From Pollutimonas harenae (lineage in GTDB: Bacteria > Pseudomonadota > Gammaproteobacteria > Burkholderiales > Burkholderiaceae_B): 64,000 nucleotides of DNA. The translations under genes were made by a program, and so were the position numbers. This document shows positions 4,593 to 55,887 of this stretch, piece by piece (position 1 is the first letter of the stretch; every line of letters begins with the position of its first letter). The DNA lies in contig NZ_SDQD01000001.1 in the NCBI RefSeq assembly GCF_004153685.1, forward strand, positions 1,116,001 to 1,180,000, written 5' to 3'. Under the pieces are notes generated by a model that searched no databases, had not been told where the DNA came from, and saw nothing but the letters and a program-made list of their open reading frames with translations.

Positions 4593-5449
4593 AATTTGCC
4601 GACTCGGACTTTGAGCCTTACGAACTATTGTTGCCGACTCGCAGCGCCATACCGCTGGTGTGCGATTCACCGCACAGCGGTACGACTTATCCGGCCGACT
4701 TCCAGTACAGCATACCGGTGTCTGAACTGCGTTCGGCCGAGGACACGTATGTCAATGAGCTGTGGCAGGCAATTCCGTCCGTGGGAGGCAGTTTGCTGGC
4801 GGCGAATTTCCCTCGCTCATACATAGACCCCAACCGCGACACGGACGATATCGACGTCACCCTGTTGGCCGAACCCTGGCCGACAGCGCTGCATCCCACT
4901 GAGAAAACCCGGCTGGGTCATGGGCTGATCTGGCGCAAGGGGCGTACCCAGCCCATCTACGATCGCAAATTGTGGGTCGCTGAAGTCGAGCATCGCATCG
5001 CCACTTATCACCAGCCCTATCACGCAGCGCTGGCGCGGCAAATAGAAGCCGCGCACGAACGCTTTGGCGTGGTATGGCATTTGAACCTGCATTCGATGCC
5101 CGCCAATTCCTACGAGGTGCTCGAAATCCAGACCGACAAGCCTTTGGCGGATTTTGTGCTGGGTGATCGCGATGGCACGACTTGCGACCCCACGCTGATC
5201 GGCATTATTGAAGACTTCCTGCTCGAGCGTGGCTACACCGTGGCTCGCAACGATCCTTTCAAAGGGGTGGCGCTGATTGCCCGCATGGGGCGCCCGGACG
5301 ACAACCGGCACAGTCTGCAGATCGAGGTGAACCGGGCTTTGTATATGGATGAGAAGCGCTACGAAAAGAATGCCAACTTTGAGGTGCTGCAAAACGATCT
5401 GACGCTCCTGAGCGCCAGAGTGGGCGAGTTCGTCGAATCGACGCTCTAG
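4589..5449 (+). CDS. N-formylglutamate amidohydrolase family protein
   Basis: This 286-residue cytoplasmic hydrolase of the N-formylglutamate amidohydrolase family (PF05013) is translationally coupled to the importer. SPHSG at 27-31, DPNRDTDDID at about 80-89 and HLNLHSMP near 165-172 look like the family's metal-site and substrate motifs. The family cleaves N-formyl- or N-acyl-type amides of acidic amino acids. No other histidine-pathway gene is nearby, so a role in processing whatever the importer brings in is more likely than histidine catabolism. It meets the C45 gene tail to tail with a four-base overlap. Confidence 0.87.
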   Translation: MKFADSDFEPYELLLPTRSAIPLVCDSPHSGTTYPADFQYSIPVSELRSAEDTYVNELWQAIPSVGGSLLAANFPRSYIDPNRDTDDIDVTLLAEPWPTALHPTEKTRLGHGLIWRKGRTQPIYDRKLWVAEVEHRIATYHQPYHAALARQIEAAHERFGVVWHLNLHSMPANSYEVLEIQTDKPLADFVLGDRDGTTCDPTLIGIIEDFLLERGYTVARNDPFKGVALIARMGRPDDNRHSLQIEVNRALYMDEKRYEKNANFEVLQNDLTLLSARVGEFVESTL

Positions 5450-6465
5450 GGTTTCAGCATTGCATCGGCCAGTTTGTATTGGGCAGGCTGGCCAGGCTGG
5501 GCGTAGACCGACCATTCGACGTGGCTGGCGCCGACATGAATATCAACGGTGGCCATGGTGTTTTCATTGTCGCTATCGTCGGGGGCGTTGCGATAAATAG
5601 GAAATTCCTGATTGGCCTGGTCGGCCAGAATGACGAGCGGGTCAAGCTGGCCCTGGGCCAGCAGGGCGTCGCCGCGTTCCTGCCGGCAGCGCGAGGAATC
5701 GGTAATCAACTGCGGGTGGTCTCTGAATCCTGGATGAATCAAATGGTTGGCATGCAATGCGGGTGCGGTCATGGTGTGGGCCGAGACACCCAGGGCATTG
5801 AATTCCACACTGTATAAATCGGGCTGGCCGCGCTGGGCCAGGCTAAGGTGGAAGCCACCTGATTTTGTGGCCCTGCGCAGCAAGGTCAAGGCATGATCCA
5901 CATGGGTTTGATTCAGTATGGCGCGGGTGAGCACCATGCGGGGAACACCGGCAGTGATCTGGCGCGAGCGCAGGTTGTTGACCGTCATGACCAGGCCGTG
6001 GGCGGTCACCGCGAAAGTGTGCCCCGGGATGGATGCCGGGTACACAAAGGAGGCAAAGGCGGGGCCGTTGTCGGGCGTAAACAAGCCTATGCCGCAGTGG
6101 CCGGCAAAGCCGGGGTCACCATCTTCATTGTGGGTAATGCGTGGCTGCCCTGTGCCGGGTAGCTGTACGGTGGTGCAGCCGTCGGGCGGCATGGACCACA
6201 GGTCACCACGGCAATTCCACAGAAATACGTCTTCAAAGGGTAGCTCCAGGCCGCTGGCCAGGCCTTCGAGTTCCTGGCGTATTTGCGGGAAGTGGGCATC
6301 GACCAGGGCCAGCATGGATGCTGCGGCGGCGCTGCCGCGCCAAGCCATGACGCTGTCCCACGACGGCGAATGGAGCAGGTAGCTGTGGGCTGATTCAGCA
6401 CCGAACTTGCCCAGCGCGACACCTGCGCTGAAGGGGGATCCGGAGGCTTCGACAAGTGACAACAT
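5446..6465 (-). CDS. C45 family autoproteolytic acyltransferase/hydrolase
   Basis: This 339-residue Ntn-hydrolase resembles the acyl-CoA:isopenicillin N acyltransferase/carcinine hydrolase family (peptidase C45). The probable nucleophile is Cys97 in the DGCTTV motif, where such precursors cut themselves before the cysteine. ITHNEDGDPG and NNLRSRQITAGVPR downstream match conserved C45 blocks. It lies 27 bases after the RpiR-type regulator on the same strand and probably shares its transcript. The family hydrolyses or transfers acyl-amides, which fits the N-formylglutamate amidohydrolase and importer next door; the actual substrate is unknown. Confidence 0.82.
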   Translation of the reverse strand: MLSLVEASGSPFSAGVALGKFGAESAHSYLLHSPSWDSVMAWRGSAAAASMLALVDAHFPQIRQELEGLASGLELPFEDVFLWNCRGDLWSMPPDGCTTVQLPGTGQPRITHNEDGDPGFAGHCGIGLFTPDNGPAFASFVYPASIPGHTFAVTAHGLVMTVNNLRSRQITAGVPRMVLTRAILNQTHVDHALTLLRRATKSGGFHLSLAQRGQPDLYSVEFNALGVSAHTMTAPALHANHLIHPGFRDHPQLITDSSRCRQERGDALLAQGQLDPLVILADQANQEFPIYRNAPDDSDNENTMATVDIHVGASHVEWSVYAQPGQPAQYKLADAMLKP

Positions 6466-9517: not shown

Positions 9518-9790
9518 TGCTGGCTCTTGGTTTTTCGGCTGAGCTTTTGAGTTCTTGAGCAAGGCGGGTGTATCAGGGGCTGTTTCGGCTTGGCGCGCTG
9601 CGGCCCCTGGCTTTGCCAGGGGCTTCCCGTTTCTGGCGGCCCGATCGAGGCGTGTGCGGAACTCGACCGGTCGGGCCAGTGGCCCGACACCCGTCGGTCT
9701 CGAGCAGCCGCACACTTGCATCCTCGATCGAACCGCCAGAAACGGCTTGCGCGAGGCGCCTGCACAGCCCCTGATACACCCGCCTTGTAA
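9518..9790 (+). repeat. Giant hairpin element, family 1, copy A
   Basis: A nested palindrome fills the gap after the CMD gene. The outer stem is a perfect 23 bp (9561-9583 with 9764-9786). Inside are a 13 bp stem (9627-9639/9733-9745), 9 bp (9642-9650/9722-9730), 8 bp (9652-9659/9708-9715) and a 7 bp tip (9671-9677/9681-9687). A side hairpin of 9 bp with a TTT loop sits in the left arm (9603-9623). The reverse complement of 26738-26965 is a diverged copy, and weaker similarity runs upstream almost to the CMD stop. Open frames inside are by-products of the palindrome. Confidence 0.85.
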
Positions 9791-23756: not shown

Positions 23757-24713
23757 CTATTGCTGGCGCTTGCGGCCAGCGCGCGGGTGAGCCTGGTCGT
23801 AGGCCTGGGCCAGGTGCTGAAAATCCAGGCGTGTATAGATTTGCGTCGTCGAAATATTGGCATGGCCCAGCAACTCCTGCACAGCGCGTAAATCCTGGGC
23901 CGATTGCAGCATGTGGCTGGCAAAGCTGTGCCGTAAACCATGTGGGTGTACATGCACAGGCAAGCCCACCAGCGTAGCCAGTTTGTTCAACTGCAGTTGC
24001 ACGACGCGAGGCGAAATACGCTTGCCCCGCGCACCCAGAAACAAGGCGGCAGAGGCATTGGGGTCGGTTGATCCGGCCAGCAATTGATCACGCTTTTGCA
24101 GCCAGCGCTCCAGGGCGGCAATGGCCTTGCCGCCCAGCGGCACGCTACGTGTCTTGCCGCCCTTACCTTTCACGATTGCTTCCTGCTCTTCGAGCTGTAT
24201 CCAGCTTTGGGACTCATATTCGCCGTTGCGCGCATAGCGCCAGTCGAGGCTGACCAGCTCGGCCAGCCGCAAGCCGCTGGAATACAGCACTTCAAACATG
24301 GCTTGGTCGCGGCAGTCGATGGCGGTATCAGGCTCGGGCAGATTGGGTCGATCGAGCAATACCTGGGTTTGCTCGACTGATAGTGCTTTGGGCAGGCTGC
24401 GGGGGATTTTTGGTGCGCGCACTCCGGCTGCGGGGTTGGATTCCATGCCGGCTTGCGGGGCCCACCACTGAAAGAAACCACGCCAGGCTGCCAGGGCGCG
24501 CGCCAGGCTGCGCGGCTTCAGGCCTTGCGCATGCAAACGTGCGACAGCCTGGCGTATATGGCTTTCTGTGCATTGATCCAGCTTCAGGTCGGCGTGGCAC
24601 AGGATCAAATGATGCAGGTCTTGTCGATAGCCCGATAGCGTGTGAACGGAATAACGGCGGTGACCTTGCAAGTGTGCAAGCCATTGCTCCATGGGGGAGG
24701 GCAGGGCATGCAT
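23757..24713 (-). CDS. xerC: Tyrosine recombinase XerC
   Basis: This 318-residue site-specific recombinase resolves chromosome dimers at dif with XerD at septation. Catalytic residues are visible: Arg149 (SSGLRLAEL), Lys184 (VKGKGGK), His258 and Arg261 (HPHGLRHS), His284 (LGHANIS) and nucleophile Tyr293 (TTQIYT). The N-terminal SAM-like core-binding domain covers about 8-95. The position after DUF484 and dapF is the conserved proteobacterial arrangement, so it is a housekeeping Xer and not an integrase. Confidence 0.95.
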   Translation of the reverse strand: MHALPSPMEQWLAHLQGHRRYSVHTLSGYRQDLHHLILCHADLKLDQCTESHIRQAVARLHAQGLKPRSLARALAAWRGFFQWWAPQAGMESNPAAGVRAPKIPRSLPKALSVEQTQVLLDRPNLPEPDTAIDCRDQAMFEVLYSSGLRLAELVSLDWRYARNGEYESQSWIQLEEQEAIVKGKGGKTRSVPLGGKAIAALERWLQKRDQLLAGSTDPNASAALFLGARGKRISPRVVQLQLNKLATLVGLPVHVHPHGLRHSFASHMLQSAQDLRAVQELLGHANISTTQIYTRLDFQHLAQAYDQAHPRAGRKRQQ

Positions 24714-24722
24714 GACCTGCCC

Positions 24723-25409
24723 TCAGGCGTAGTCGTCAGGTTTGGCGGGCCCTTGCAGACGCAGCAGGCTGGCGCTGGCCAGACGATTGATCGTGTCAAG
24801 AAAAGCCGTGCCCATGTCGGGCGTAAAGCGCTCGACGTCGTCAGAGCCCAGCACCAGCAAGCCGATGGGTTCGCCGCTGCCATGGGGTCGCAGCGCAATC
24901 ATGGCCAGTGAAGCCGGCGGCATGCCCAGCCACGTTGCGGCTTCCTGGTCGGTGTAGGGGCCGCAATAAGGTGTGGTCAGCTCGCGGGCGTAAGACCGTA
25001 TGCTGTCGGTGACGTCCTGATTGAACTCGGTGTCTTGAAGGCCGGAAAGATCCCACAGCCGCAGGGCGATCGTAGACAGGTCGAACAGGTCGCCCAAGCT
25101 GCGTACGACATGGCCGGGCAGCTGAGTGGCGTCGTCTTCGGCCAGCATGCGACAGCACCAGTCCATCAGGGTGTTGGTAATGCGTTCATTGCCGCTGGCA
25201 TTGTGCACCAGCCCCGACAGTTTCCATTCAAGATCTTTGGCGCGGGCGCGCAGCGTCAGGATCTGGCGTTCACCCAGTGAAATGGCACGGGTCTCGTTGG
25301 GATGAGGCACACGCAAATTGGCGAATACCTCGGCGTGGTCCTGAAAGAAGGAAGGGTTTTCTTGCAAGAACTGCGCAATATGCTCGGAGGAAAGGCTGTC
25401 TGCACTCAT
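24723..25409 (-). CDS. DUF484 family protein (GAF-like)
   Basis: This is a 228-residue cytoplasmic protein with the DUF484 opening ([31 protein letters not shown]) and a GAF-like C-terminal half. Function is unknown. It lies between dapF and xerC as in many gamma- and betaproteobacteria. It overlaps the dapF stop by four bases and is nine bases from xerC. Confidence 0.92.
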
Positions 25410-26299
25410 GGCTGTAAAAAATCCTTGGTGGTTAACTGTTCGGTAAGCGTGTCGATGTCGACGCTGCCGGCAAACACCGTAACCGCTGGCCCGCTCATGT
25501 GCAAGAGGTTGTCGGCCCAGGTGATGGCCAGCGGACCGCCCCGGGTATGCACCAGGACCGGGCTGTCGAGCAGGCCACGGCGTATTCCGGCCACCGCCGC
25601 CGCGCAGGCGCCGGTACCGCAGGCCAATGTTTCACCCGCTCCGCGCTCATAGACGCGCAGCTTGATGGTGTGGCGGTCGAGTACTTGCATGAAGCCCGCA
25701 TTGACGCGCTGCGCAAAGCGCGGGTGAGATTCTATGAGTGGTCCGGCTGTGCCCACTGGCGCCGTTTGTATGTCGTCGACCAGCTGGACGGCATGCGGGT
25801 TGGAGATGGCGACCAACGAGAGTTGGACGTCATTGTGGCCAGGTAGGGGCAAGGCCCACAGGGTGTCGTCTGCGCAGGGTGTGGATTGCAGGCCTTGTAC
25901 GTCGAAGGCAAGCGCTTGGGGTTCGAATCGGGTCTGGCCCATTTCGACCGAGACGTCGCCGTTGCCGGTGCTGTCGAGGGTGATGATGCCGGATTTGATT
26001 TCGGCTCGCAGGGGGTTACGGCGCGACAGGCCTTGTTCGTGCACGAAGCGTACGAAGCAGCGGGCGCCGTTGCCGCAATGTTCGACTTCGCTGCCGTCGG
26101 CGTTGAAGATGCGGTAACGGAAGTCGGCTTCGGGGTGCAGGGGGGTGTCGACGAGGAGGATTTGGTCGGCGCCGATACCGAAATGGCGGTCGGCTAGCGC
26201 CCGCGCCCGTTCGGGGGTGAGGTCGATGTTTTGTCGCACGCCGTCGAGCACGACAAAGTCGTTGCCTGCGCCGTGCATTTTTACGAAGTTCCAGATCAT
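25406..26299 (-). CDS. dapF: Diaminopimelate epimerase DapF
   Basis: This 297-residue enzyme converts LL- to meso-diaminopimelate for lysine and peptidoglycan. The two catalytic cysteines are Cys75 ([12 protein letters not shown]) and the one in ACGTGACA near residue 232. It starts at ATG 26299 ([15 protein letters not shown]); the frame is open further upstream, but that part overlaps hairpin C and is not protein-like. It is first of the dapF-DUF484-xerC operon. Confidence 0.96.
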
Positions 26300-26450
26300 G
26301 ATGCTGACATTATCGCGGATTAGGTGGGGTTTGTCCGTGATTTTTGAGTTGTTGGTGCGCAGGTTGCTGCTGATGAGAAATATGCCACTTTTTTGATCGT
26401 GGCTGTAGGTAGGTAAGTTTTCTGTTGCTGGTATCACTGCGTTCTTGCGC

Positions 26451-26668
26451 GGTGCAGTCATGTGTCCGGGATGCCGCTCCGATCGCTGCGCCCCTCCTGC
26501 GGAGGGGTGCCCTTGCCCTGGTCTCACAGCGGGGTCGGACGCGAACTCGCCTGGGACAGTCCCCCGGACTGTCCCAGGCTCAGACAGCGCGTCCTCTTAG
26601 GCCCCCGCTTTGAGACCTGGGCTGCGGCTTGCTCAAACGTCGCTTTACCCCGGACACATGACTGCACC
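26451..26668. repeat. Giant hairpin element C
   Basis: This is a 218-base nested palindrome. The outer stem is a perfect 20 bp (26451-26470 with 26649-26668). Inner stems are 26515-26525/26612-26622 (one mismatch), 26528-26534/26603-26609, 26537-26543/26588-26594, and an 11 bp tip 26551-26561/26567-26577 with loop CCCCG. A side hairpin is at 26491-26497/26501-26507. The architecture matches the A/B family (outer stem, side hairpin, stepped inner stems) but the sequence does not. It lies upstream of dapF. Confidence 0.8.
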
Positions 26669-26729
26669 GTGTCATGACGGCAGGGGTGATACCCGCTGTC
26701 AATGGATTTTTGTACCCCAAGCCTGGCTC

Positions 26730-27010
26730 ATTCCTAAAAAGGCGTATGTGACGGGGGCTGTGCAGGCGACTCGCGCAAGCCGTTTCTGGTGGCTCGATCG
26801 AGGATGCAAGTGTGCGGCTGTTTGAGACCGACGGGTGTCGGGCCATTGGCCCGACCGGTCGAGTTCCGCACACGCCTCGATCGGGCCACCAGAAACGGGA
26901 AGCCCCTGGCTTTGCCAGGGGCCGCAGCGCGCCAAGCCGGAACAGCCCCCGTCACATACGCCTTTCTTAAGAACGAATTATCAGGAGGCCAAAAATCAGA
27001 GAACCAACAC
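26730..27010 (-). repeat. Giant hairpin element, family 1, copy B
   Basis: The second copy of the family, in reverse orientation to copy A, lies just past the stop of the minus-strand Bug-type gene. The outer stem is a perfect 24 bp (26738-26761 with 26942-26965). The inner 13 bp, 9 bp and 8 bp stems and the side hairpin of copy A are all present. On the minus strand the outer stem ends in a T5 run, so it could act as a terminator. Weak similarity to the copy A upstream flank extends to about 27010. Confidence 0.85.
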
Positions 27011-27021
27011 GGCAGAACAGA

Positions 27022-28020
27022 TCAATCCAGCGAAAGGCCCAAGCGATTGATCACCTCATCCCAGCGCTTCTTCTCGCTCACTACCAGCTCGGTCAACCCC
27101 TCGGGTGTTGTCGGTGCTGGCGTGAAATAAAGCGTCGCCATCTTCTGCTTCACATCATCACGCGCCAGGATCTTTGTGATCGACTCATTCAAGCGCTGCA
27201 CCACATCATCCGGCGTACCGGCAGGCACAAAAATTGCATCCCAGGAAATCGACTCGAAACCTGGATAACCCTGCGACGCCATCGTTGGGATGCCTGGCAG
27301 CACATCGCTAGCCTCCAGGCTGGTGATCGCCAGCGCGCGTGCTTTGCCTGCCTTTACCTGCGCCATGGCGATGCCAGGCACCATGAAGCCTGCCTGCACA
27401 TCGTTGTTAAGAATCGATGTAATGATTTGTGGGAAACCAGAGTACGGGATCTGCTGCAGGCTGATGCCGGCCTCATGCTCCAGCATGGCCATGCCCAAAT
27501 GCGAAGAACTGCCCGGGCCCACCGTACCGTAGTTCAGCTCGCCCGGCTTGGACTTGGCCAGGCTCACGAATTCCTGAACATTCTTCGCTTCGAAGTCTTG
27601 TGGCACCACCAGTACGTTCGGGCTCGTGCCCACCAGTGTGATCGGCGCCAAGTCCTTCAGGGGATCGTAGCCCAGTGTCTTCTTGTACAGAGTAGGTGCC
27701 GTGACCATAGGTCCATTGATGGTCAGGAGTATCGTGTATCCATCAGGCTTGGCCTTGCTGGCAGCGCGCGTGCCGATGTTGCCGCCTGCACCCGGCTTGT
27801 TGTCAACGACTACCGGTTGACCCAGGTCTGCGGCCAAGGGCTCGGCAATGGCGCGTGCCAGAATGTCTGGCGAGGACCCGGCCGGGAAGGGCACAATCAT
27901 CTGAATGGGCCGTTCGGGCCAGGCCGCCTGCGCCACTGGCGACAAGGCGAAGAAGGCGGCACCGGCAAGCGTCAGGGCCGAGGCGTGCAGACGTCGGCGG
28001 GTTATGGAAAATCCAGTCAT
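27022..28020 (-). CDS. Bug/TctC family tripartite tricarboxylate transporter substrate-binding protein
   Basis: This is a 332-residue periplasmic protein with a twin-arginine-like start (ITRRRLHASALTLAGAA) and signal cleavage near AQAA-W. The mature part has PIQMIVPFPAGSSPDILAR and DNKPGAGGNIGTRAASK, classic Bug motifs. It lies 49 bases after gpsA in the same direction and may read through from it, but it is not a normal part of the grxC-secB-gpsA operon. It carries no TctAB partners. The ATG at 28020 is chosen because it gives the signal peptide. Confidence 0.92.
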   Translation of the reverse strand: MTGFSITRRRLHASALTLAGAAFFALSPVAQAAWPERPIQMIVPFPAGSSPDILARAIAEPLAADLGQPVVVDNKPGAGGNIGTRAASKAKPDGYTILLTINGPMVTAPTLYKKTLGYDPLKDLAPITLVGTSPNVLVVPQDFEAKNVQEFVSLAKSKPGELNYGTVGPGSSSHLGMAMLEHEAGISLQQIPYSGFPQIITSILNNDVQAGFMVPGIAMAQVKAGKARALAITSLEASDVLPGIPTMASQGYPGFESISWDAIFVPAGTPDDVVQRLNESITKILARDDVKQKMATLYFTPAPTTPEGLTELVVSEKKRWDEVINRLGLSLD

Positions 28021-28069
28021 CAGTGATTCCTTGGGCAGAAAATAACGGTATTTGAAAAGGGTCGAAATA

Positions 28070-29113
28070 TTACTCAGGCCCGGCCTCGCGCGCGAGCAGG
28101 TCGGTGACGGCTCGCCCTGGCGCCATGCCGTCGAACAACACTTTGCATACTGCTTCGGTAATGGGCAGGTTGATCTGGTGCTGGCGACCGAGCGCCAGCG
28201 CGGCTCGAGCACAGCGCACACCTTCAGCGGTCAGGCCGCCGGCCAGAATGTCGTCCAGACCCTTGCCTTGCGCCAGGGCAATGCCTACTTGCCTGTTGCG
28301 TGACAAGTCGCCGGTTGCGGTGAGCACCAGGTCGCCCAGGCCGGTCAGGCCGGCGAAAGTGGCCGCTTGTCCGCCCAGCGCCTGACCCAGTCTTTGCATT
28401 TCGGCTAGCCCACGCGTGATCAATGCGGCTCTGGCATTGGTGCCCAGCTTGAGTCCGTCGGAAATTCCGCAAGCAATCGCCATGACGTTTTTCAGTGCGC
28501 CGCCGACCTCGACGCCGATGATATCGGTGCTGGTATAGATGCGGGCACTGCTGCCGTGCAAGGCCTTGATGGCCGCCTGTGCGGTCCAATCGTGCCGGGT
28601 GGCGACAGTCAGTGCTACGGGCAGGCCTTGTGCGACCTCGAGCGCAAAAGAGGGGCCCGACAGCACGCCCAGGCCCAGTTCGGGCAGGGAGGCGAATGCC
28701 TGTTGGGCGATTTGCTGAGGAAGCAGACCCGAGTCGGGTTGGAAACCCTTACACGTCCAGACGATGCTGAGCTTGCCGCGCGGCGGTGTTGCTGCGAGCG
28801 ATTGCGCCAGCTTATGGCACAGGCTGTGCAGCCCCACTACCGGTACGCCAAGAATAATCAGGCTGTCATCGCGGCCGGTGTTGCAGACGTGATCGATGGC
28901 TTGCTGAAAATCAGCCGTGGCGTTCAGTGCCTGGGGCAGGGGCGTGTTGGGCAGATAGCGGGGGTTGGCGTGATCGTGTGCAATGCTCTGGGCAAGATCA
29001 GGATTGCGGGCCCATAGCAGGGTGTCGGCCCGTGCACTGGCCAGTACGGCCAGCGCGGTGCCCCAACTGCCGGCGCCCAGCACCGACACGCGTGGACGCT
29101 GCTGGCCGTTCAT
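28070..29113 (-). CDS. gpsA: Glycerol-3-phosphate dehydrogenase [NAD(P)+] GpsA
   Basis: This 347-residue enzyme makes sn-glycerol 3-phosphate from dihydroxyacetone phosphate for phospholipids. The nucleotide-binding GAGSWG is at 13-18 and the catalytic lysine is in [12 protein letters not shown]. The start at 29113 ([15 protein letters not shown]) is four bases after the secB stop, as in the conserved secB-gpsA pair; a longer open frame overlaps secB and is not used. Confidence 0.96.
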
Positions 29114-48585: not shown

Positions 48586-48840
48586 TAGGCCGTTTATATC
48601 CCCGTGAGACCCCTCCGTACACGTTGTCTGGTGTGGCAAGGGGGGGTGGACCGGCACGGCGTGCTTGTTTCCGCCTCTTCCTCGTCCAGCCGGGCGTCGG
48701 CCGAACTCGCTCGCTGCGCTCACTCAGACAGCGGCCGACGAATACCCCCGGCCTCCCTTCGGAAGCAGGCGGCGCACGCCTGACCGCCGGCCCACCCCCC
48801 TTGCCACACCAGACAATATGCATGGATCACAACGGGCCTA
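48586..48840. repeat. Giant hairpin element D between convergent genes
   Basis: This nested palindrome fills the gap between apt and the FAD/Fe-S oxidoreductase ends. The main stem is a perfect 22 bp (48624-48645 with 48795-48816). Inner stems are 48651-48655/48786-48790, 48658-48664/48774-48780 and 9 bp 48695-48703/48732-48740. A weak outer pairing is 48586-48594 with 48831-48840. Between these the 48526-48934 gap contains no gene. The sequence is unrelated to hairpins A, B and C although the layout is alike. Confidence 0.78.
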
Positions 48841-55131: not shown

Positions 55132-55887
55132 ATGGCGCCAGACGGCCTGTACCTCCAGATAGTGAACAGCATGCCGGCATTGCGTTCGGCCGGCATGCGG
55201 GTCGCACCCGGGCATGTGCGGGCTTGGCTGTACCAATTTGTGGATGATGCCGGGACGCAGGAAGCACTGCTTTCGCTGTTGTCCAAAGACGAGTTGGAAC
55301 GCGCCCGGGCTTTTATAGCGCCGGCGGCTCGCCGGCACTATATCCAGGCCCGGGCGGTCCTGCGCATGCTGCTGGGGGAGGTGCTTGAGACGTCCCCCCA
55401 GGAGCTGGTTTTTGATTATGGTTGTTATGGTAAGCCGTCGCTGCGCGACGCCGCCGCTTGTTGCTTCAATATCGCTCATTCGGGCGACTATGCGCTGCTG
55501 GCGGTTGCCCAAGGCTTGTCGGTTGGCGTGGATATCGAGCGGCAACGCGAAACGGCAGACCTGGATGCTTTGGCGCGCATGGTGTTGTCGCCCGCCGAGA
55601 CAGACAGTTGGGCTGTCCTGCCGCCTGCCGATCGTGCCCCTGTGTTTTTTTCCACCTGGACAGCCAAGGAGGCTTTGGTCAAGGCGACAGGTCGAGGTCT
55701 GGGGCTGGGCCTGTCAGCGTTGGAGGTGGGCCGTTTTCCAGGCGGTGTTCCTGACGCGGGCTGCTGTGTTCAGATGGGCGAGTCTGGCGTTTTCCGCCTG
55801 GTGCCGCTGGATGCGCCCTTGGGCTATGCGGCGGCCCTGGCGGTGCATGAGCCCTCGCTCGGCCTTTCAGGCAAACAGCTCGCGTAG
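55132..55887 (+). CDS. 4'-phosphopantetheinyl transferase, Sfp type
   Basis: This 251-residue enzyme attaches phosphopantetheine from CoA to carrier proteins. The Mg-binding motif VGVDIERQ is at about 132-139 and FSTWTAKEALVKATGRGL near 174-191. It could serve a siderophore, polyketide or other carrier system, none of which is in the window. It lies 26 bases after ilvA and overlaps the convergent pxpC gene by 21 bases. Confidence 0.92.
   Translation: MAPDGLYLQIVNSMPALRSAGMRVAPGHVRAWLYQFVDDAGTQEALLSLLSKDELERARAFIAPAARRHYIQARAVLRMLLGEVLETSPQELVFDYGCYGKPSLRDAAACCFNIAHSGDYALLAVAQGLSVGVDIERQRETADLDALARMVLSPAETDSWAVLPPADRAPVFFSTWTAKEALVKATGRGLGLGLSALEVGRFPGGVPDAGCCVQMGESGVFRLVPLDAPLGYAAALAVHEPSLGLSGKQLA

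Follow-up and report, generated by a model that had tools for sequence, protein, structure and literature searches.

Genomic context and fold of the hairpins

The window, i.e. the whole stretch of 64,000 nucleotides that was analysed, carries two adjacent giant hairpins, C and B, between dapF and a gene of the Bug type. Two further giant hairpins, A and D, were detected by a scan of the window for long inverted repeats. The features are as follows.

25409-26299, - strand: dapF (DAP_epimerase), flanking gene outside the element
26450-26669, + strand: giant hairpin C, half-unit with the core motif on the + strand
26450-26470, + strand: outer stem of C, 5' arm, pairing perfectly with 26649-26669 (21 bp)
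26649-26669, + strand: outer stem of C, 3' arm (inverted-repeat arm)
26488-26510, + strand: side hairpin of C (GCGCCCCTCC/GGAGGGGTGC), from the fold
26543-26587, + strand: core of C, GAACTCG - inner hairpin - CTCAGACAG, the shared motif
26549-26579, + strand: inner hairpin of C, arms 26549-26562 and 26566-26579, 14 perfect pairs
26670-26737: spacer between C and B, 68 bp, without cargo gene
26738-26965, - strand: giant hairpin B, inverted partner half-unit, long arms starting at 26738
26818-26866, - strand: core of B, GAACTCG - inner hairpin - CTCAAACAG
27025-28221, - strand: Bug/TctC gene, flanking gene outside the element
9560-9787, + strand: giant hairpin A, of the B type (90% identity to B)
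9659-9707: core of A, with 2 mismatches
48614-48826, + strand: giant hairpin D, with its core at 48703-48731

A sits between a CMD gene and a GNAT gene, and D between a phosphoribosyltransferase gene and an FAD-oxidase gene; in both cases the two genes face each other. When the window was scanned for folding, A-D were recovered plus one weaker stretch at 55161-55380. This fifth low-energy stretch (-126 kcal/mol per 220 nt) is without the core motif.

Hairpin C folds on itself over the full length of 26450-26669. The RNA fold of 26451-26668 was calculated as -149.2 kcal/mol for the + strand (z -12.2) and -152.2 kcal/mol for the - strand (z -12.6), and on each strand 0 of 200 shuffles was as good. 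The giant hairpin that an earlier note had described here from the letters alone is thus real, and its fold is strong on + and - alike (z about -12). The perfect outer stem was also borne out, with 21 bp where 20 bp had been read, as was the closeness of C to B (68 bases between the arms, 69 in the note), and the neighbours dapF (DAP_epimerase) and the Bug-type gene (TctC) are those that had been named. No Rfam match was obtained up to E 1 in 25500-28500 (covariance models, 4227 families), and no intrinsic terminator (G+C stem followed by a T run) was seen in 26200-27200, where the number of terminator-like sites was 0. A spurious protein family was considered and rejected, six translated hairpin frames being without NCBIfam or Pfam match.

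Common core and inverted pairing

Comparison of the four hairpins revealed a common core, consisting of GAACTCG, an inner hairpin whose length and sequence are free, and CTCARACAG. The window has three exact cores, those of C and D on the + strand and that of B on the - strand, compared with 0 in 100 shuffles, a result which is not independent because the pattern was defined after viewing these hairpins. The shared core contradicts the idea that B and C are different, unrelated sequences: it is common to both, with B on the opposite strand. What stands of that description is the shared design with differing stems; the unpaired joints, however, are identical. The suggestion of a class of elements, not a single repeat, was confirmed by the four hairpins in the window and by further copies, which occur in other genera as well as in three sister genomes.

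As judged from the sequence, C (+) and B (-) are one unit, an inverted pair. The orientation of 118 distinct adjacent core pairs less than 4 kb apart was +- in 103, -+ in 6, ++ in 5 and -- in 4, counts that lean to pairs because some stretches had been picked for the matches or pairs that searches showed there. A fairer set is formed by 120 genome_contigs stretches from the motif scan alone, among the matches listed. Among these listed matches, 35 of 43 pairs were +-, with gaps of 158-308 bp (24 pairs) or 891-1663 bp (11 pairs), and a +- partner within 2 kb was present at 34 of the 120 loci; the cores point past the edge of the available sequence in 34 of the 120. Some copies are inherited and shared by related genomes, e.g. 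L357 and L360, so that binomial values calculated for the units are nominal.

The gap between the cores falls into two classes, either about 140-390 bp, with no cargo, or 0.5-1.7 kb, mostly with cargo. With a gap of about 230 bases, C-B belongs to the cargo-less class. No partner for A or D was detected in the window. A different arrangement was observed at L197 (3034-3508), where three cores lie in the same orientation with uneven spacing, unlike the usual inverted pair.

Variable stems and constant joints

The length and sequence of the inner hairpin are free between copies and its pairing is kept. For pairs 2-8 of 63 distinct cores, which include some chance matches inside genes, 228 of 326 were Watson-Crick, while shuffles gave a mean of 116 and a maximum of 139. 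Watson-Crick pairs occupied 241 of 243 aligned positions of the inner hairpins in 33 elements, and 885 of 960 in a wider set.

The C type was aligned with 17 copies, collected by similarity from four genomes in two genera, and the structure was that of the first row, i.e. the window's own fold. The joints GAACTC, TCARACA and GCGGCTTGCTC are kept in the 17 copies with few exceptions, and the stems vary. It was found that 84.7% of the cells are paired, against 69.5% in shuffled alignments, and 15% are unpaired. Two-sided changes amounted to 196 cells (64 when shuffled, at most 48 with slid partners) and one-sided changes to 21 cells. The outer helix of C showed two-sided changes at 16 of its 20 modelled pairs. 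Further pair types were not above the shuffles in this alignment (71 vs 71.4).

Isolated mispairs in the arms of 100 units, read on the motif strand, were A.C in 47 contexts and G.T in 21. Seen from the complementary strand, which reads outward from the pair, the A.C mispairs of the motif strand become wobble pairs. This makes an outward RNA possible, and the lean hints that the complementary strand is the one that folds. In the C-type alignment the ratio of G.U to A.C cells was 15 vs 68 without four G.U-dominated columns and 70 vs 68 with them; this polarity count is weak because it depends on setting those columns aside, and the mispairs of the 100 units are the better test. Two G.U columns are constant in all 17 C-type copies.

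Empty, filled and unrelated sites

The region upstream of dapF was compared in relatives. The hairpin pair is present at this site in G000, G002 and G003. It is absent in G001, where about 109 bp separate dapF (91% identical) from the Bug gene, with no core and no hairpin. Thus the pair does not show what had been expected of a local feature, namely the same synteny and sequence in every relative and no hairpin elsewhere: the G001 site is empty and copies occur at other places. It had also been supposed that the hairpins lie where the usual dapF neighbours are lost. This link was not supported, as the same Bug frame stands beside dapF in all four compared genomes of the genus, the hairpin-free G001 included; the frame is TctC by Pfam in G000 and G001, and was recognised in G002 and G003 by its near-identical end. 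In G021 a lipid A acyltransferase lies beside dapF. The hairpin pair upstream of dapF is probably a passenger.

Empty sites in relatives were found at three loci, namely dapF, D and lnt/GIY-YIG. The D site is without hairpin in G001, G005 and G021, with gaps of 20, 19 and 27 bp, respectively. At the same site G002 has a B-type hairpin on the + strand and a C-type hairpin on the - strand, and G003 has the outer half of one hairpin at a contig end and the other hairpin at a contig start. The lnt site, whose GIY-YIG-like gene was named by sight, was followed in the genus of G184 (L313 1280-3200 and relatives L314-L324; 11 relatives examined out of 20 listed). It is empty in 8 of the 11, with 19-64 bp between matching flanks, and filled in G184, G201, G202 and G208, the main cargo frame being different in each. 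No target-site duplication was readable at the lnt or the dapF site.

Two RES cassettes from different genera, L291 and L362, align along 1364-2674 of L291 (75.5%), and their flanks gave no match over 60 bases. The flanking genes are a dihydroorotate dehydrogenase (DHO_dh) in one, and AcrB and MgtE in the other. The match starts at the end sequence AAAACCGTCGGGGG, and the similarity is confined from hairpin end to hairpin end, at unrelated sites. Of 339 units, 152 have an end hairpin of the AAAACCGTCGGGGG kind, which in 143 of them lies 119-133 nt outside the core.

Other structures were seen close to the units. L313 and L322 have another repeat (CCGTTCGTCCTGAG...CGAAGGATGGGCGAAGCCCGC) outside the hairpin ends, which in L322 forms an inverted pair, as if nested. 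On the outer side of many units, e.g. L193 at ~1530 and L240 at ~2480, there is an AT-rich side hairpin (AGTTACTTTTCTT...AAGAAAAGTAACC); after it comes AAAAGAA, a third purine tract with the potential for an intrastrand triplex.

Cargo of the paired hairpins

In 36 +- pairs the gap measures 486-1663 bp, and most of these enclose one or two ORFs, different between loci; L346 and L366 have no frame of at least 80 aa between the hairpins. The GC content of the cargo was lower than that of the flanks in 35 of the 36 pairs, the exception being L080, with the qualification that only 57 flank bases were available for L286 and that L363 and L366 differ little.

Thirty cargo proteins from 29 cassettes were scanned (L080, L144, L164, L353, L357, L368 and L376 being left out), and 13 of the 30 passed the Pfam cut-off. 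The domains were RelA_SpoT (2), RES (2), Mrr_N, DUF3800, DUF2971, DUF4238, DUF2441, HEPN_RiboL-PSP, 8xMP, BRCT and LprI. None of the 30 proteins matched a transposase or recombinase family (Pfam, E 0.01). Among the flanking genes, 9 of 10 had a Pfam domain over the cut-off, nearly all of them household functions (lipoprotein acyltransferase, IlvD, ArgJ and others), and one of the ten is a phage-integrase-family recombinase. Strong PADLOC matches were obtained for 3 of 30 cargo proteins (PDC-S33 twice, PDC-S31) vs 1 of 10 flanking genes, so that no enrichment in defence is shown; weak matches were found in three further cargo proteins. The defence flavour of the cargo comes from the Pfam names and from general knowledge.

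Genes of recombinase type were noticed at two places. A XerC-like frame, recognised by sight, lies at 23757-24713 of the window, two genes past dapF, and the L223 cassette adjoins a phage-integrase-family gene at 4948-5844. Both may be coincidence, or a hint that points to the missing enzyme.

Relation of the window to the cassettes and distribution

The half-units of the window have no whole-length match to the cassette ends, and they are without the end hairpin and without the TCCTCGCC word after the core. A further joint, NCCC[TG], lay outside all search patterns. Of the 50 units in the window's family, 43 have it 26-38 nt ahead of the core, as do 231 of 296 others; the same word 20 nt further out occurs in 25 of 50 and 118 of 296. 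The tie between window and cassettes lies in the core, in the inverted pairing with its short spacing class and in this one further joint. A pair with cargo was not detected in the genus of the window. In the window's family one cargo-sized pair was seen, L144, upstream of dapF in G005, with a gap of 1087.

The short core pattern gave 99 matches in 39 of 150 genomes of the order and its reversed control 37 matches in 32 genomes; because the control occurs in nearly as many genomes, the pattern is a poor tracer and only genomes with multiple paired matches count for much. A longer pattern is absent from the window's own genome and gave no control match. One family had it in 16 of 30 genomes and one genus in 29 of 34, while among 185 genomes drawn from the class it was detected in 1. 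The genome_contigs matches listed include some from Gallionella, Dechloromonas, Thauera, Nitrospira and a few odd metagenome bins. The longer pattern was also seen (L148-L227) in bins labelled Barnesiella, Bacteroidaceae, Coriobacteriaceae, Nitrospira and Myxococcota, which may reflect binning error or transfer.

Carriage by plasmids was considered and rejected, as neither C nor B nor the L193 cassette gave a blastn match. Carriage by phages was likewise set aside, with one exact match only of the longer pattern in viral_contigs. This sole match, L298 (9046-10268), represents a cassette, and its cargo gave matches to DUF2971 and PADLOC PDC-S31.

Proposed nature of the element

C and B are best explained as the two ends of one cargo-less, non-autonomous mobile element, a reading drawn from comparison of sequences and held with moderate confidence. 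The element would measure ~0.5 kb and consist of two structured half-units in inverted order, and its relatives would carry one or two genes between like ends. Its basis in the comparison is a core common to the units, their pairing in inverted order, gaps of two size classes, cargo of foreign-looking composition and empty sites, and furthermore the varied cargo at one site and a single cassette that occurs at two unrelated places, where the match stops at the hairpin ends. Against this explanation stand the lack of a mobilising enzyme among the cargo, the lack of Y1 in G000 and the fact that no target-site duplication could be read.

As to the mechanism, a folded single strand, either extruded or on the lagging-strand template, would be recognised by an enzyme supplied in trans. 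IS200/IS605 and REP systems move through folded single-stranded DNA. The unpaired joints would be the contacts of the enzyme and the stems only a scaffold, and selection would act on the joints. The two halves of the motif are 4 to about 40 bases apart and are linked by nothing but a helix of free sequence. They are thus not side by side in double-stranded DNA but only in the folded strand, which argues for recognition as folded DNA or RNA. The stems may stay matched through drift if template switching renews one arm as a copy of the other, as is suggested by the scarcity of half-changed pairs.

A wider reading, which is put forward tentatively and is itself rather doubtful, is that of an unnamed cassette system in Burkholderiales, in which mirror-image half-units load and exchange single genes and insert them into the chromosome; B-C would be an unloaded cassette. 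The fixed single-stranded joints and the free stems would then be ends for an enzyme reading folded DNA, several cargo genes would be of toxin or defence type, and the system would be independent of integron integrases and RAYTs.

The hairpins could instead be structured RNAs that act in transcripts as stability element, RNase III site, attenuator or small RNA. Such a role has been proposed for ERIC, NEMIS and other stem-loop repeat families, and here it would agree with the strong fold on both strands, the constant unpaired joints, the two-sided changes and the intergenic place; the lean to A.C mispairs (47 vs 21) permits an outward RNA and two G.U columns are constant. However, each pair bears the motif once per orientation, so that no transcript holds both in the same sense, and half-compensated changes are rare (21 cells vs 196). 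Terminator-like sites are also lacking in 26200-27200, as are Rfam matches in 25500-28500, and the hairpins are absent at the same site in G001. Cargo cassettes would remain unexplained; in particular, an outward RNA does not account for cassettes at unrelated sites, and an enzyme acting in trans via folded single-stranded DNA is therefore favoured over an RNA function, which is regarded as unlikely. It is improbable, too, that a large REP/REPIN- or MITE-like repeat is moved here by a RAYT (Y1) or another known transposase. Inverted palindrome pairs with a constant unpaired motif do have the REPIN layout, and G002, G003 and G005 possess one Y1 gene each, but the Y1 genes of G002 and G003 adjoin a different hairpin (TGGGGTCAGACACG...), no core pair lies near the Y1 gene of G002, G003 or G005, and G000 is without Y1_Tnp match. 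Of the tetranucleotide tags of REPs, GTAG or CGTC, GTAG is absent from A-D on either strand, and the units have ~220 bp compared with the 20-40 bp given for REPs in PMC3733652. A RAYT as mobiliser was rejected: 11 of the 26 genomes searched have Y1, but G000 is not among them, and another hairpin stands beside it in G002 and G003. In these two genomes (L124 of G003, L125 of G002) the Y1 transposase gene, a 243-aa frame, lies with three near-perfect hairpins TGGGGTCAGACACGATTA... in a 3.3-kb stretch, which is a separate REP-like system of the same genus.

Recopying alone, without function or enzyme, would leave old quasi-palindromes whose arms stay matched through template switching and which spread when the flanking DNA recombines in the ordinary way. 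Template switching has been proposed to create and maintain hairpins (PMC8794818), and the few half-changes and the very high Watson-Crick share of the inner hairpins fit with it. Nevertheless, recopying would symmetrise the joints, and asymmetric joints persist in the copies that similarity revealed in two genera; the joint outside the search pattern persists more widely, and a cassette is found at unrelated sites with sharp ends. This possibility is considered very improbable.

Returning to the preferred mobile element, if the cassettes move, the core occurring twice in inverted orientation would be a simple rule for finding small cassettes that annotation may miss. A list of single-gene candidates for toxins and phage defence would then be available, and the question posed would be which enzyme reads the hairpin ends. 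Stems that change in both arms while the joints stand still offer a test case for pairing selection against template-switch recopying.

Comparison with known systems

In the open-licence full-text literature on repeats, cassettes and host groups no description of the element was recognised, and the letters of the motif led to unrelated papers only. Bor-1 and Bor-2 of Bordetella are two stem-loop families (Cozzuto et al. 2008, PMC2267715). Like the present hairpins they are intergenic structured repeats of a betaproteobacterium, of 93-167 bp and in 17 to 196 copies; the available text of PMC2267715 mentions no pairs or cargo. Compared by description only, Bor-1 and Bor-2 could be related to the present element and thus be an earlier description of it. 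The intrastrand triplex repeats of E. coli comprise two motif types in close inverted pairs, one of each, and differ in their short, G/C-rich motif (BoxC), according to the available text of PMC4666352, in which the words Burkholderia and Bordetella are absent. The host names gave no match in the corresponding text of PMC6006769.

The likeness to REPIN/RAYT systems lies in the inverted palindrome pair (C on the + strand, B on the - strand), its constant unpaired bases and its intergenic, dispersed and non-autonomous occurrence. The present units are, in contrast, several times longer, some relatives of the element carry cargo, and there is neither a GTAG-tagged palindrome of 20-40 bp nor a linked RAYT gene flanked by the same repeat.

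Mobile insertion cassettes (MICs) and MITEs have two inverted ends with a passenger gene or nothing between them and no transposase; their ends match those of a full IS and are accompanied by a target-site duplication. The present element likewise has inverted ends around a passenger gene or none, without transposase, C-B being the cargo-less form. It differs in having as ends long hairpins that fold with variable stems around constant joints; no autonomous parent was seen, and a target duplication could not be read at the lnt or dapF site.

Integron cassettes combine small cargo genes with a structured attC end, whose terminal stem is free around unpaired bases, and the attC consensus boxes are RYYYAAC ... 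GTTRRRY. Integron integrases, which act on attC hairpins, are related to recombinases of the XerC/XerD type. Neither box is present in A, B, C or D, and since the boxes are each other's reverse complement, reading the + strand covers both strands. Common to both systems are the small cargo genes and the structured end with a variable stem around unpaired bases, whereas the present cassettes have two inverted ends instead of one and occur as scattered single cassettes.
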